Assembly (NCBI GenBank): GCA_035316325.1
Contig: DATHJB010000163.1
Coordinates: 1-32,402, forward strand
Direction: 5' to 3'
DNA from: Acidimicrobiales bacterium
Lineage (GTDB): Bacteria; Actinomycetota; Acidimicrobiia; Acidimicrobiales; VFJN01
DNA: 32,402 nt
How positions within the stretch are numbered: position 1 is the first letter of the stretch; the number at the start of each line of letters is the position of its first letter. This document shows positions 4,845-9,802 of this stretch, in pieces. The notes under the pieces were generated by a model. The model searched no databases. It was not told the origin of the DNA and saw nothing but the letters and a program-made list of their open reading frames with translations. The translations under genes and the position numbers were made by a program.

Positions 4845-5063
4845 GTGTTCAAGACGAAGATGCCAGTCGGTCCGTGGCGCAAGGCCAGCGCGAGCAACGG
4901 CCAAGGCGGTTGCTTCGAGTTCGCTCCGTCGGTGGGGGGCGGTGTGCTGCTCAGGGACAGCAAGGACAAGGGCCAGGGGCCGATCCTGCAGTTCGACCGC
5001 AACGAGTTCGAGGCCTTCCTCAAAGGCTGCAACGACGGGGAGTTCGACGACCTCCTCGGCTGA
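4845..5063 (+). CDS. DUF397 domain protein, partner of the XRE/DUF5753 regulator
   Basis: The 72-residue product has the complete DUF397 pattern: GPWRKASASNGQGGCFEFAP, then a VLLRDSKD motif, then PILQFDRNEFEAFLKG. The GTG start at 4845 follows AAGGTGAGGAGAG, a good Shine-Dalgarno sequence. It lies 20 bases behind the XRE gene and should be co-transcribed. DUF397 proteins are known to bind or modulate their paired XRE regulators in streptomycetes; that role is inferred here from the pairing alone. A strong hairpin follows 15 bases after the stop. Confidence 0.88.
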   Translation: MFKTKMPVGPWRKASASNGQGGCFEFAPSVGGGVLLRDSKDKGQGPILQFDRNEFEAFLKGCNDGEFDDLLG

Positions 5064-5078
5064 CCCCGGACGCGACGG

Positions 5079-5105
5079 CGGGGGTGCCCCCGCAGGGCAC
5101 CCCCG
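5079..5105. terminator. Strong hairpin between convergent genes, likely bidirectional terminator
   Basis: CGGGGGTGCCC and GGGCACCCCCG pair perfectly over 11 bp around a 5-base loop. The hairpin sits between the stop of the DUF397 gene (5063) and the stop of the convergent lipoprotein gene (5124). It has no U-run, as is common for terminators in very GC-rich actinomycetes. Confidence 0.7.
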
Positions 5106-5123
5106 ATCGTCACCCGCCGTGGG

Positions 5124-6095
5124 CTAGTAGTCGTAGTCCTCGTCCGCAGGGTCCTCGGAGTCCGTGTCCGCAGGGTCGGAGTCCGCGGGGGCCGAGTCGG
5201 CAGCGGGGACCGGGGCCTCCTTGATCAGCGTGCCGTCGGCGGCGACCACGAACCAGACCTCGCCGGAGCCCTGGCCGTTCACGTCGCCGGGGCCCGAGTC
5301 GCCGGAGAACCGGTAGAGCGGCCACTTGCCCGCCTCGAGCTGCGTCCCGCCGTCGACGCCGTCGACCAGCGTGAACACCGCCGGGTCGAGGCCCTCACCG
5401 ACCACCGGGTCGCCCTCGATCAGGTGGGCGGGCCAGGTGCCGGCGCAGTCGCCGGCGCAGGTGGGAACGCCGTCGGCGTCGTCGGTGAAGCCGTACAGGG
5501 TGTTGCCGTCGCCGTCGACCAGGATCTCGCCCAGCGGGCTGTCGGCCACCTCGACGCTGGTCGCCGCGGCCGCCGCCTCGGGATCGGACCCGCTGCCGGC
5601 CGGGGCCGGGTCACGGATCAGCTTGGCGTCGAGGCCCACGACGAACCACACGTCGCCCGAGCCCTGGCCGTTCACGTCGCCGGGGGCCGTGTCGCCCGAG
5701 TAGTAGTACAGCGGCCACTTGCCGGCGACGAGCTGCTCGCTGTCGTCGTCACGGCGCACGGTGGAGAACACGCCGCTGTCGAGGCCGGGGCCGACGGTCC
5801 AGTCGCCGCCCACCAGCACCGGCGGCCACGCATCGGCACAGGTGCCGGTGCAGGTGCTGACGCCGTCGACGTCGTTGGTGAAGCCGTAGAGGGTCATCCC
5901 GTCCTGGCCGACGAGGACCTCGCCGAGGGCGGTGGTGGCCGAACGCACGGCCACCGAATCGCCGGCCGAGGCCGACGCCGCCTGATCGGCTGGTGGTGAA
6001 GGCGCTGAGGCCTGGGTGTCGTCCTTCTTGTCGCCGCAGGCGGCGAGGGTGAGGGCTGTGGCCGCGACGAGAGCGGCGAAGGTTCGAGTGCGCAT
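5124..6095 (-). CDS. Lipoprotein with two secreted-repeat (COG4315 / PF03640-type) domains
   Basis: The product has 323 residues. The N-terminus is a lipoprotein signal peptide with lipobox LAAC (Cys20), so it should be anchored outside the membrane. Two similar domains follow (about 55-160 and 183-288), each with G(E)(I/V)LV..G.TLYGFT.D.DGV.TC.G.CA..WP, then KWPLY..SGD..PGDVNGQG...VWFVV, the signature of the secreted repeat family. Two Cys per repeat (TC.G.C) suggest a disulfide or metal site. The C-terminus is a very acidic Asp/Glu/Ala/Pro tail ending DEDYDY. It is the last gene of the ECF sigma operon, 21 bases behind the cupredoxin, with AGGAGA before the ATG. The molecular function of the family is not established; a role in extracytoplasmic redox or metal handling is inferred from the neighbours. 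Confidence 0.87.
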   Translation of the reverse strand: MRTRTFAALVAATALTLAACGDKKDDTQASAPSPPADQAASASAGDSVAVRSATTALGEVLVGQDGMTLYGFTNDVDGVSTCTGTCADAWPPVLVGGDWTVGPGLDSGVFSTVRRDDDSEQLVAGKWPLYYYSGDTAPGDVNGQGSGDVWFVVGLDAKLIRDPAPAGSGSDPEAAAAATSVEVADSPLGEILVDGDGNTLYGFTDDADGVPTCAGDCAGTWPAHLIEGDPVVGEGLDPAVFTLVDGVDGGTQLEAGKWPLYRFSGDSGPGDVNGQGSGEVWFVVAADGTLIKEAPVPAADSAPADSDPADTDSEDPADEDYDY

Positions 6096-6116
6096 GGTGG
6101 TCTCCTGTTGATCACG

Positions 6117-6566
6117 TCAGCGGACCGTGAGGGTGCCGCTCATGTCCGGGTGGATCTCGCAGTGGAAGTCGTAGGAGCCGGGCTGGGCCGGGGCGACGAA
6201 GGCGCCCGCGGTACCCCCGGACACCTGGCCCGAGTCGAAGTCGCCGCCGTCGGCGGTGGCGGTGTGGGGAGCGCCGTCGCGGTTGTCGACGGTGACCTGA
6301 CCGCCGGCGGCGACCTCCACCGACTCGAACTGGAAGCCGCTGATCTCGAGCGACGCCGGGGCCGCGGTGGCGGTGGCGCCCTCGTCCGACGAGCCCGAGT
6401 CGGCGCCGTAGCCGCCGCCCGTGTCGGTGTTCGTGTTGACGTTGGCAGCCGGTGCCGGCGCCGCGGCCGGGGTGTCGTCGCCGGGCTCCAGGAAGAGCGC
6501 TCCGGCGGCGACGCCTGCGGCAGCGACGCAGACGACGAGTGCTCCGGTGATGGTCGAGTTGCTCAT
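6117..6566 (-). CDS. Cupredoxin (plastocyanin/azurin-like blue copper protein)
   Basis: The product has 149 residues. A hydrophobic N-terminal segment (about 7-26) is a signal peptide or anchor, followed by a low-complexity Ala/Pro/Asn/Gly linker to about residue 70, then a beta-sandwich domain (71-149). All four type-1 copper ligands are visible: His101 in GAPHT, and Cys136, His139 and Met142 in FHCEIHPDM. It should carry single electrons on the outer face of the membrane. The likely partners are the polytopic membrane protein encoded upstream and the repeat lipoprotein encoded downstream. A GAACC-N15-CCGTA element lies 10-34 bases upstream, so the message may be nearly leaderless; there is no Shine-Dalgarno sequence. 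Confidence 0.88.
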   Translation of the reverse strand: MSNSTITGALVVCVAAAGVAAGALFLEPGDDTPAAAPAPAANVNTNTDTGGGYGADSGSSDEGATATAAPASLEISGFQFESVEVAAGGQVTVDNRDGAPHTATADGGDFDSGQVSGGTAGAFVAPAQPGSYDFHCEIHPDMSGTLTVR

Positions 6567-6575
6567 GGCCGTCGA

Positions 6576-6600
6576 TACGGAAGGTGCCGGGGAACGGTTC
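6576..6600 (-). promoter_or_regulatory. ECF-sigma-type promoter before the cupredoxin gene
   Basis: On the minus strand GAACC (6600-6596), 15 bases and CCGTA (6580-6576) match the -35 (GAAC) and -10 (CGTA) style of ECF sigma promoters. The -10 ends 10 bases from the ATG at 6566, so the transcript would be leaderless or nearly so. The same element with the same spacing precedes the membrane-protein gene. Confidence 0.6.
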
Positions 6601-6602
6601 GA

Positions 6603-7157
6603 TCAGACACCGGGAAATCCGACGTTCTGGAAGAACCACAGCGACGACGTGAGCCACAGCACGGTGAGGCAGGTGACCAGCAGCCCGCCGAGCACCGGCA
6701 GCGCCATCCGGGGCAGGCGGTCGCTGCGCAGGGCCAGCATCTTCGTGGTGAAGGCGCCGTAGAACGCGCAGCCGAACAGGGAGTGCGCCAGCACCCGGGA
6801 GTCGGTGTCCTGGAAGCCGAGCGACCAGAGGCAGTGGTAGGCCACCGGCAGGGTCACGACGAACGCCGCCGTCCCCGACCAGCGGTGGACGAACGGGAGC
6901 CACGGCGGCCGCGTGTGCACACCGGGCAGGTGGCCCCACATGGCCAGGGCGCTGGTCAGCTGGCCGATCGCCAGCACGAAGGCGCCGGTGGCGAGCCAGG
7001 CCTTCATCGACAGCACCGTCGGGAACCCGAAGGTGGTGATGCTGCCACCGGTCGGCTCGTGCACCCGGCCGTAGGTGCCGAGCGCCAGGGCCACGGCGGC
7101 GCCCGCGGCCGCGGCGGCCAGGAGCGCGTTGGTGTTGGGGACGGTTCGCGTCGTCAT
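6603..7157 (-). CDS. Polytopic membrane protein, possibly haem-binding (DUF6529-like)
   Basis: The product has 184 residues and about five membrane segments (roughly 10-30, 52-72, 95-115, 123-142, 153-175). Three His lie at a regular spacing in or next to these segments: His91 (VHRWSG), His108 (AYHCLW) and His125 (LAHSLFG). This resembles b561-type or ferric-reductase-like haem proteins, but I do not see a named signature beyond a likeness to the uncharacterised DUF6529 proteins, and haem binding is inferred. It sits between the anti-sigma gene (36 bases away) and the cupredoxin gene (36 bases away). It could pass electrons across the membrane to the cupredoxin. A GAACC-N15-CCGTA promoter-like element precedes it; ATG 7157 has no Shine-Dalgarno. 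Confidence 0.7.
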   Translation of the reverse strand: MTTRTVPNTNALLAAAAAGAAVALALGTYGRVHEPTGGSITTFGFPTVLSMKAWLATGAFVLAIGQLTSALAMWGHLPGVHTRPPWLPFVHRWSGTAAFVVTLPVAYHCLWSLGFQDTDSRVLAHSLFGCAFYGAFTTKMLALRSDRLPRMALPVLGGLLVTCLTVLWLTSSLWFFQNVGFPGV

Positions 7158-7166
7158 GCCCGCAGG

Positions 7167-7191
7167 TACGGAAGCCGGCCGCCCGCGGTTC
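7167..7191 (-). promoter_or_regulatory. ECF-sigma-type promoter before the membrane-protein gene
   Basis: GAACC (7191-7187), 15 bases and CCGTA (7171-7167) on the minus strand, ending 10 bases before the ATG at 7157. Spacing and distance to the start codon are identical to the cupredoxin element. The element lies in the 36-bp gap just after the anti-sigma stop codon. Confidence 0.6.
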
Positions 7192-7193
7192 GT

Positions 7194-7814
7194 TCAGGTC
7201 TGGGGCAGCTCGCCCCGCAGCACCACGACGCCCTCGGCGAGGGTGCCGCCGTCGACCGGTTGGCGGGTCACGGTGATGGCGTCGTAGCCCGCCGGGTCGA
7301 CGCCCAGCCACAGCTGGACCTCGTCCTCGTCGCCCCGCTGGTGGAACGTCCCGGCCGACACCTTGCCCTTGCCCTCGGCCACCAGCCACGCCTCGTAGAA
7401 GGTGCCCTCCGGCGCCGGGGGCAGCCCGTCGGTCGCCAGCACCACCGAGAACCCGGACGGCTCGTCGCGCAGGGTCACGGTCGCCGAGGCCGACGGCGCC
7501 TCCTCGGTCCCCGCCAGCGCCACCTCGACGCCCGACGGCGACGAGTCGCCCGTCAGCACCAGGCTGCCGCCCACCGCCAGGCCCACCACGACCACCGCCG
7601 CGGCCGCCAGCAGCCCCGGACGCTGCCACACCGGCCGCCGTCGGGGCGCCGGCGCGCGATGGCGCGGCAGCTCCGACACCGGGGCGCCGGCCGTGTCGGC
7701 CCCGAGCGCCTCCGCCAGCGTCCGCTCGCGCAGGCCCGGGGAGACCTCCGCCCAGACGGCGGGGTCGTCCAGCAGCCGGGCGAGCGTCGGGTCGACGGGG
7801 TCGGTGCCGCTCAC
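7194..7814 (-). CDS. RskA-like anti-sigma factor
   Basis: The product has 206 residues. A short cytosolic N-terminus (1-64; LARLLDDPAVWAEVSPGLRERTLAEAL) would hold the sigma factor, one membrane segment spans about 67-89, and the external part (about 95-206) matches the RskA C-terminal domain, with SGFSVVLATDGLPPAPEGTFYEAWLV and GTFHQRG. RskA-type proteins sequester an ECF sigma factor until proteolysis releases it. The zinc-anti-sigma motif HxxxCxxC is absent, as in other RskA-type proteins. It is encoded 52 bases behind the sigma gene, the standard order. The start is GTG 7814. A GAACC-N16-CCGTA element 10-35 bases upstream suggests the released sigma factor also drives its own inhibitor. 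Confidence 0.85.
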   Translation of the reverse strand: MSGTDPVDPTLARLLDDPAVWAEVSPGLRERTLAEALGADTAGAPVSELPRHRAPAPRRRPVWQRPGLLAAAAVVVVGLAVGGSLVLTGDSSPSGVEVALAGTEEAPSASATVTLRDEPSGFSVVLATDGLPPAPEGTFYEAWLVAEGKGKVSAGTFHQRGDEDEVQLWLGVDPAGYDAITVTRQPVDGGTLAEGVVVLRGELPQT

Positions 7815-7823
7815 GACGGTAGG

Positions 7824-7849
7824 TACGGTCCTGGTCGGTGGGTCGGTTC
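7824..7849 (-). promoter_or_regulatory. ECF-sigma-type promoter before the anti-sigma gene
   Basis: GAACC (7849-7845), 16 bases and CCGTA (7828-7824) on the minus strand, in the 52-bp gap between the sigma stop and the anti-sigma GTG at 7814. The spacer is one base longer than in the two other copies. Third occurrence of the same bipartite element in this operon. Confidence 0.55.
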
Positions 7850-7866
7850 GGTGGACATGACGATCC

Positions 7867-8421
7867 TCAGAACGTATCCATGCTGGGTGCGAGCGCCGCC
7901 GCGAGCTGGCGGTAGGCGGTGTGGGTACGGGACTTGACGGTGCCGAGCGGCACCCCGAGGCGCTCGGCGATCTCGGGTTGGGTCAGCTGCTCCTGGTGGG
8001 CCAGGCGGACGACGTCCCGACTGGCCGGCGGCAGGGCGTCGATGGCGGCGCGCAGCGCCCACACGTCGGCGATGTCGCCGATCGACGGCGGCTCCACCAC
8101 GGGCAGGTCGAGCGGGGCCACGTCGTCGATGTTGCGGGCCTGGTGGCGGCGCTCGCGGCGCCACACGTCGACCGCGGTGCGCCGGACGATCGACCGCAGC
8201 CACGGCCCCAAGGGCCGCTCCGGGTCGAACGTGGCGGCGGCCCGCCAGGCCTGCACGAACGCCTGCTGCACCGCCTCCTCGGCCAGGCGCCGGTCACCGA
8301 GCAGCGTGGTGGCGACGCCCAGCATCGGCCCGGCGTAGGCGTCGAAGACCTCGCCCAGGGCGGAGTCGTCGCCCGCGGTGAACCGCTCCTCGACCGACGC
8401 TCCCCGTTGCCTCCGACCCAT
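7867..8421 (-). CDS. ECF-family RNA polymerase sigma factor
   Basis: The product has 184 residues. Region 2 (about 11-80) reads VFDAYAGPMLGVATTLLGDRRLAEEAVQQAFVQAWRAAATFDPERPLGPWLRSIVRRTAVDVWRRE. Region 4 (about 118-175) reads IDALPPASRDVVRLAHQEQLTQPEIAERLGVPLGTVKSRTHTAYRQL, with the HTH. No sigma-3 or C-terminal extension is present. The start is ATG 8421, which overlaps the plus-strand ATG of the divergent lpqY-like frame; GGGCGGAG precedes it. It heads the operon sigma, anti-sigma, membrane protein, cupredoxin, lipoprotein. Gene order suggests a SigK/RskA-like switch controlling an exported redox module. The inducing signal cannot be read from the sequence. Confidence 0.92.
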   Translation of the reverse strand: MGRRQRGASVEERFTAGDDSALGEVFDAYAGPMLGVATTLLGDRRLAEEAVQQAFVQAWRAAATFDPERPLGPWLRSIVRRTAVDVWRRERRHQARNIDDVAPLDLPVVEPPSIGDIADVWALRAAIDALPPASRDVVRLAHQEQLTQPEIAERLGVPLGTVKSRTHTAYRQLAAALAPSMDTF

Positions 8422-9802
8422 GCTCCGCCCTGCCTCGTCCGCCCCTGGACAGTATCGGCAGTTTGAGGACCGGGGTGCCGGGGCAGCGTCCTCGGCCACG
8501 AGGAGAGATCGAGCCACCACGCTGCGTCGCACCGCCGGCGCCGTCACCCTCCTGCTGGGAGCGGCCACCCTGGGCTGCTCGGGCGACGCCGACGGCATCA
8601 CCACGCTGACCTGGTACATCAATCCCGACAACGGCGGGCAGGCGGCGCTGGCCGAGACCTGCACCAAGGCCGCCGACGGCAAGTACCGCATCACCACCGC
8701 GCCCCTGCCGAACGACGCCGACGGCCAGCGGGAGCAGCTGGTCCGGCGGCTCGCCGCCAACGACTCGTCGATCGACCTGATGAGCCTCGACGTGGCGTTC
8801 CTCGCCGAGTTCGCCCACGCCGGCTTCCTCGAGCCCTTCGACGAGGACACGGCGACGGAGCTCACCGACGGCGTGCTCCCCGCACCTGCCAAGTCGGCCA
8901 CCTGGGACGACAAGCTGATGGCGGCTCCGTTCTGGGCCAACACCCAGCTGCTCTGGTACCGGAAGTCGGTGGCCGAGAAGGCGGGCCTCGACCCCGACAG
9001 CGGTCCCGTCACCTGGGACCAGGTCATCGCCGCCGGTGAGCAGACCGGCACCACCGTCGAGGTGTCGGCCGCCCAGTACGAGGGCTACGTGGTGTGGATC
9101 AACGCCCTGGTGGCGGGGGCCGGCGGTGAGATCCTGTCCGACGTCGAGGCCGGTCGCGACGCCACGCCCGAGATCGACTCCGACGCCGGCCGGACGGCCG
9201 CAGGGATCATCGGTCAGCTGGGCCGGTCCTCGGTGGCCGACCCGCAGATCGACACCGCCACCGAGGAGACCGTGCGCTCCGGGTTCCAGGCCGACGACGG
9301 CGGCTTCATGGTCAACTGGCCCTACGTGTACGGCGCCGCCCAGGGCGCGGTGGCCGACGGCTCCCTCGACCAGGCCGTGTTCGACGACATCGCCTGGGCC
9401 CGCTACCCGCAGTCGGTCGCCGGCACCGACAGCGCCCCTCCCCTCGGCGGCATCCACCTGGGCGTCGGCGCCTTCGGAAGTCACAAGGACCTGGCGGTCG
9501 ACGCCGTGCGCTGCCTCACCTCGGACGACAGCCAGACCGCCTACATGCTGGCCGAGGGCAACCCCGCGGCCCGGGGCGACGTCTACGACGACGCCGACGT
9601 CCAGGCGAAGTTCCCGATGGCGCCACTGATCCGCGACTCGATCGCGTCCGCCGGCATCCGGCCGCAGACGCCGTTCTACCCCGACGTCAGCGCCGCCCTG
9701 CAGCGCACGTTCTCGCCGCCCCGCAACGTGCGCGCCTCGACCACGCCGCGCCGGGCGGCGCAGCTCATCACCGACGTGCTCAACGACGAGGCGCTGGTCT
9801 GA
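8420..9802 (+). CDS. lpqY: LpqY-like trehalose/disaccharide ABC substrate-binding lipoprotein
   Basis: The core closely follows mycobacterial LpqY: LTWYINPDNGGQAAL, QLVRRLAANDSSIDLMSLDVAFLAEFAHAGFLEPF, WDDKLMAAPFWANTQLLWYRKS, GYVVWINALVAGAGGEILS, FMVNWPYVYG and LGGIHLGVGAF. It should capture trehalose or a similar alpha-glucoside outside the membrane for SugAB-SugC. A lipoprotein signal (TLRRTAGAVTLLLGAATLGC) is clear, but it begins 33 residues after the only in-frame ATG nearby (8420; another at 8378). A CTG at 8522, 14 bases after AGGAGAG (8501-8507), would place the signal peptide at the true N-terminus, so a CTG start is possible. The stop overlaps the sugA start (TGATG). First gene of lpqY-sugA-sugB-sugC. 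Confidence 0.88.
   Translation: MLRPASSAPGQYRQFEDRGAGAASSATRRDRATTLRRTAGAVTLLLGAATLGCSGDADGITTLTWYINPDNGGQAALAETCTKAADGKYRITTAPLPNDADGQREQLVRRLAANDSSIDLMSLDVAFLAEFAHAGFLEPFDEDTATELTDGVLPAPAKSATWDDKLMAAPFWANTQLLWYRKSVAEKAGLDPDSGPVTWDQVIAAGEQTGTTVEVSAAQYEGYVVWINALVAGAGGEILSDVEAGRDATPEIDSDAGRTAAGIIGQLGRSSVADPQIDTATEETVRSGFQADDGGFMVNWPYVYGAAQGAVADGSLDQAVFDDIAWARYPQSVAGTDSAPPLGGIHLGVGAFGSHKDLAVDAVRCLTSDDSQTAYMLAEGNPAARGDVYDDADVQAKFPMAPLIRDSIASAGIRPQTPFYPDVSAALQRTFSPPRNVRASTTPRRAAQLITDVLNDEALV
8453..8478 (-). promoter_or_regulatory. Weaker ECF-type promoter before the sigma gene (possible autoregulation)
   Basis: On the minus strand GCACC (8478-8474), 15 bases and CCGATA (8458-8453) resemble the GAACC-N15-CCGTA elements further down the operon, with one change in the -35 and one inserted base in the -10. 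It lies 32 bases before the sigma ATG. It is plausible as an autoregulatory promoter but weaker than the other copies. Confidence 0.35.

Follow-up and report, generated by a model that had tools for sequence, protein, structure and literature searches.

Three promoter-like elements as predicted targets of the resident ECF sigma factor in an operon of an Acidimicrobiales bacterium

An operon on the minus strand of the analysed DNA, a stretch of 32,402 nucleotides from an Acidimicrobiales bacterium (the window), carries three exact copies of a two-box element, GAACC-N15/16-CCGTA, placed shortly before the start codons of an anti-sigma factor, a DUF6529 membrane protein and a cupredoxin. From the sequence, we consider these elements with a probability of about 0.87 to be −35/−10 promoters read by polymerase in complex with the product of the ECF sigma gene (7867-8421), feedback on the anti-sigma factor included. 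The promoter reading had been put forward in a preliminary description and has gained support, as the boxes are conserved, their spacing is fixed and their presence tracks the sigma orthologue within the order. The features concerned are as follows.

8453-8478, minus strand: GCACC-N15-CCGATA ahead of the sigma gene; proposed fourth site, rejected
7867-8421, minus strand: ECF sigma factor gene, 184 aa (Pfam Sigma70_r2 1.1e-15, Sigma70_r4_2 1.1e-13)
7824-7849, minus strand: site 1, promoter-like, exact match to GAACC-N16-CCGTA before the anti-sigma GTG; predicted start ~7817
7194-7814, minus strand: RskA-type anti-sigma factor gene with a GTG start (Pfam RskA_C 5.8e-17)
7167-7191, minus strand: site 2, promoter-like, exact match to GAACC-N15-CCGTA before the DUF6529 ATG; predicted start ~7160
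6603-7157, minus strand: DUF6529 membrane protein gene (Pfam PF20139 3.6e-72)
6576-6600, minus strand: site 3, promoter-like, exact match to GAACC-N15-CCGTA before the cupredoxin ATG; predicted start ~6569
6117-6566, minus strand: cupredoxin gene (Pfam Cupredoxin_1 2e-09)
5124-6095, minus strand: lipoprotein gene with secreted repeats, Lipoprotein_15 (Pfam PF03640 1.6e-46)

The five genes are read in the order ECF sigma factor, RskA-type anti-sigma factor, DUF6529 protein, cupredoxin and repeat lipoprotein (5124-8421). The sigma protein has the make-up of an ECF (group 4) factor, with Sigma70_r2 at 26-92, Sigma70_r4_2 at 122-173 and no match for region 3, and its orthologues in syntenic loci are 42-45% identical. 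The adjoining protein carries an RskA_C domain and was assigned as an RskA-type anti-sigma factor on this basis. Upstream of the lipoprotein gene, there is a normal AGGAG ribosome site and the motif is absent; the gene is probably co-transcribed with that of the cupredoxin. A sigma-70 scan of 4900-8700 found no housekeeping-type promoter. The cupredoxin and the repeat lipoprotein suggest envelope redox chemistry as the role of the predicted regulon. For DUF6529, of which no mention was found in the literature searched, His91 and His125 are invariant across 62 sequences, and the predicted structure is a confident helical bundle (pLDDT 91.9). Foldseek with this model gave no significant match to any solved structure; the non-significant helical-bundle matches include designed diheme proteins and cytochrome b561, and since such matches may reflect no more than a shared arrangement, we make no claim of a haem function.

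The claim that the motif recurs three times at a fixed short distance from start codons was borne out. All three copies are exact, the last A of CCGTA is separated from the start codon (ATG, ATG and GTG) by exactly 9 nt at each of them, and the window holds these three and no more, while 100 dinucleotide shuffles of the window gave a mean of 0.09 matches and never three. Site 1 begins just past the sigma stop codon. If the C of CGTA is taken as position −10, transcription would start at a G at 7817, 7160 and 6569, and the predicted messages would have 3-nt leaders. As for the spacers, described earlier as not conserved, they do differ from one another, but both N15 sites share ...CTTCCGTA. The boxes themselves are of the GAAC/CGT type that is given as the hallmark of ECF promoters in PMC8103513; ECF factors were first defined by their AAC and CGT boxes, and ~55% of them are predicted to be autoregulated (PMC8103513).

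The conservation of the element was followed through DUF6529, which occurs in 26 out of 397 genomes from the order and is absent from all six same-family genomes examined. A scan of named genomes yielded 69 DUF6529 loci, mainly from Acidimicrobiales and Ilumatobacter bins, Kribbella and some Streptomyces; no relatives were found on viral contigs. In many of the Acidimicrobiales loci, the sigma/anti-sigma pair is divergent from the DUF6529, cupredoxin and lipoprotein genes. In relatives, GAAC and CGTA lie 17 nt apart, sometimes 18, and the boxes stand before DUF6529 and at the sigma/anti-sigma junction. Among loci with enough upstream DNA, DUF6529 was preceded by the motif in 28/36 of those with a neighbouring cupredoxin or lipoprotein gene vs 0/30 of those lacking such a partner (p = 1e-11, uncorrected for relatedness); these counts are not independent, as the relatives are for the most part metagenome bins from related lineages. 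Thirteen relatives also have the motif at the sigma/anti-sigma junction; in three of them (G307, G355 and G137) the pair lies away from DUF6529. In locus L128, separate copies precede DUF6529, a divergent cupredoxin gene (9 nt from its ATG) and the lipoprotein gene; the cupredoxin gene of L151 also has its own copy, and the Kribbella locus L131 has several, one of them before an anti-sigma/sigma pair. Thus, comparison of orthologous operons, which the preliminary description had named as a check, found the boxes kept before the DUF6529, cupredoxin and lipoprotein genes and before the anti-sigma gene in many relatives.

Further regularities emerged around the boxes of the relatives, whose sites were chosen for exact boxes, the flanking bases playing no part in the choice. 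A purine follows GAACC in 41/41 sites and a pyrimidine precedes it in 40 of the 41; a G occupies the third base past CGTA in 36/41, and an A/T-rich stretch lies ~13-20 nt upstream of the boxes. All three window sites have the pyrimidine and the purine. They lack the A/T tract, and two of the three also lack the G; because of these two features, they score under the relatives' own sites on the matrix. The putative DUF6529 promoters of relatives have longer leaders than those in the window, and near-leaderless use would therefore be lineage-specific at best.

It might be argued that the repeats reflect chance, GC-rich composition or conserved codons rather than a DNA signal. In most relatives the junction site overlaps the 3′ end of the sigma gene, where it encodes an ANQ tail in one frame, and this single-frame overlap was counted in nine relatives, as expected if the peptide were the conserved entity. 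In the window, however, the sigma gene stops ahead of the junction site, and in L103 the sigma stop codon overlaps GAACC; with the site outside the sigma frame in these two cases, peptide conservation cannot explain the motif. The DUF6529 sites are upstream of their gene and share no frame with it, and the shuffles quoted above speak against composition, so that we give this explanation a negligible probability. It is the DNA element that persists as the coding context changes. The sigma tail of L117 (position 648) has ANQ two times over (AANQTSSANQ), as would result from a duplication of the −35 box.

The two remaining alternatives accept the element and question its reader. Twenty genomes of the order that bear DUF6529 were searched with a profile built from six sigma proteins. 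All ten motif-bearing genomes gave a sigma match of E 1e-59 or better, six of them being in the profile by construction; the four independent ones (G307, G355, G076 and G137), with the sigma gene away from DUF6529, have orthologues at E 1e-59 to 1e-80. Genomes with no motif before DUF6529 reached at best 1e-26 to 1e-37 or had no match, except G060, which is intermediate with a match of 1e-51 and no motif at that place. A blind order-wide pattern scan matched the sigma loci of G307 and G076. In the wider phylum, a sigma orthologue was found in five of nine motif-bearing genomes, three of the other four having been scored incompletely; in L128, the motif is present and no clear sigma orthologue was found. 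Motif copies also lie near the sigma loci of Herbidospora and Kribbella sindirgiensis. That the promoters are real and read mainly by a different ECF factor of the genome might be envisaged, as three more of its sigma factors fall within E 1e-22 and GAAC/CGT boxes are common to many ECF groups. It is the window sigma, however, whose orthologues accompany the motif in the order, and in many lineages a site lies inside this sigma factor's own sigma/anti-sigma pair, which makes a different reader improbable. Binding of the two boxes by another regulator, the element then being no promoter, is very improbable: a pair of short conserved boxes with constant spacing would suit some activators or repressors too, but the boxes here do not repeat one another, have the ECF hallmarks, lie as far from the starts as promoter boxes would and follow the sigma gene across the order.

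The sigma gene itself is probably outside the promoter set. A weaker fourth box, which had been proposed before it (8453-8478), is present in its letters, but on the matrix built from relatives' sites it scores −11 to −20 bits, that is, as background, and relatives with the sigma gene divergent from DUF6529 have no comparable site at the equivalent place. A cognate promoter upstream of the sigma gene, the mark of positive autoregulation, was thus not found in the window. As the motif was not found before the sigma gene in most of the order, the loop would be negative, not positive. More distant relatives differ in this respect: in genome G060, the motif stands before the sigma gene itself and before a gene for a secreted protein (L206:1995 and 3003), the autoregulated layout; L203 possibly has it before the sigma gene as well, and in L151 it lies before the sigma gene or an operon that includes it. 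This distribution suggests a rewiring. That it is a lineage-wide rewiring of this ECF group, in which distant members keep the promoter before the sigma gene and the window's order has it at the junction, is a tentative proposition to which we give somewhat less than even odds. If true, the sigma factor switches on its own inhibitor and the effectors and not itself, and the junction site would escape motif predictors that look upstream of sigma operons.

The following course of events is proposed for the preferred reading, transcription by the resident sigma factor. A signal would free the sigma factor from its membrane RskA-type anti-sigma factor, and the holoenzyme would bind YGAACCR at −35 and CGTA at −10. 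Transcription would start ~3 nt ahead of the anti-sigma GTG and of the ATGs of the DUF6529 and cupredoxin genes, with the lipoprotein carried on the cupredoxin transcript. Activation would hence yield envelope redox-type proteins plus more anti-sigma factor, not visibly more sigma factor, and with the anti-sigma factor made in this way, the response would shut itself down.

The preliminary description had also recommended a genome scan, which found no clear excess outside the operon. The 6.37 Mb genome holds nine exact-motif matches, six of them outside the operon, vs seven for the reversed control, so that the three sites form a local cluster and exact copies do not make up a large regulon. 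One of these matches, GAACC-N15-CCGTA upstream of a WhiB-like gene (L003:1501-1525; contig C157:19760-19784, plus strand), is probably due to chance, as a G, not a pyrimidine, precedes the −35 box. The extended motif YGAACCR-N14-16-CGTA gave 31 genome matches vs 19 for the control; most of these have a spacing that the real sites do not use and are likely in coding DNA, and what remains is one good intergenic candidate and one or two weak ones. The good one, CGAACC-N16-CGTACTGG, is intergenic before a gene for a secreted repeat-rich protein (L209:1501-1526; contig C20:26685-26710, plus strand); it agrees well with the extended consensus of the relatives and may be a further regulon member outside the window. 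A weaker candidate is an extended match between the genes of an HxlR-like regulator and an acyl-CoA dehydrogenase (L232/L099; contig C205:14613-14638, minus strand).

Taken together, these results provide an uncharacterised actinobacterial ECF sigma factor with a well-supported predicted target motif and a small, coherent predicted regulon of anti-sigma factor, DUF6529 membrane protein, cupredoxin and repeat lipoprotein. The conserved putative promoter at the junction represents a feedback design open to comparison between lineages. Its placement would be overlooked by standard prediction, which relies on the DNA in front of autoregulated sigma genes.

Among known systems, SigK-RskA of Mycobacterium tuberculosis (PMC7509140) resembles the window in pairing an ECF sigma factor with an RskA-type membrane anti-sigma factor, whereas the target genes differ. 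Identity with SigK was rejected, the window sigma scoring 87.3 bits against a cut-off of 226 for NCBI NF007228; it has no cysteines, whereas two are typical of the SigK group. The likeness to SigU-RsuA of Streptomyces coelicolor, whose regulon includes SCO0930 (PMC6295645), amounts to one regulon gene family: the window lipoprotein is closest to the family named after SCO0930, although under its cut-off (183 vs 275 bits). No SigU promoter consensus was found in the literature searched. The closest parallel in wiring is SigH-RshA of Corynebacterium glutamicum, in which a SigH-dependent promoter within sigH was shown experimentally to drive only rshA; sigH is transcribed from other promoters, and the rshA promoter was proposed to shut the response down (PMC3489674). 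A sigma-dependent promoter inside the sigma/anti-sigma pair, as predicted in the window, thus has a precedent, and the negative-feedback wiring is not new in kind. The earlier remark that several internal promoters of one type are unusual consequently holds for the three tandem copies, but not for the occurrence of such a promoter before an anti-sigma gene. SigH-RshA differs in its GGAA/GTT boxes, its large stress regulon and its single promoter of this kind in the operon, whereas the window has three tandem putative promoters of the same type, two of them for effector genes. What appears unusual, from the sequences compared, is the combination of three separate tandem putative promoters with leaders of ~3 nt and the conserved placement before the anti-sigma gene only.
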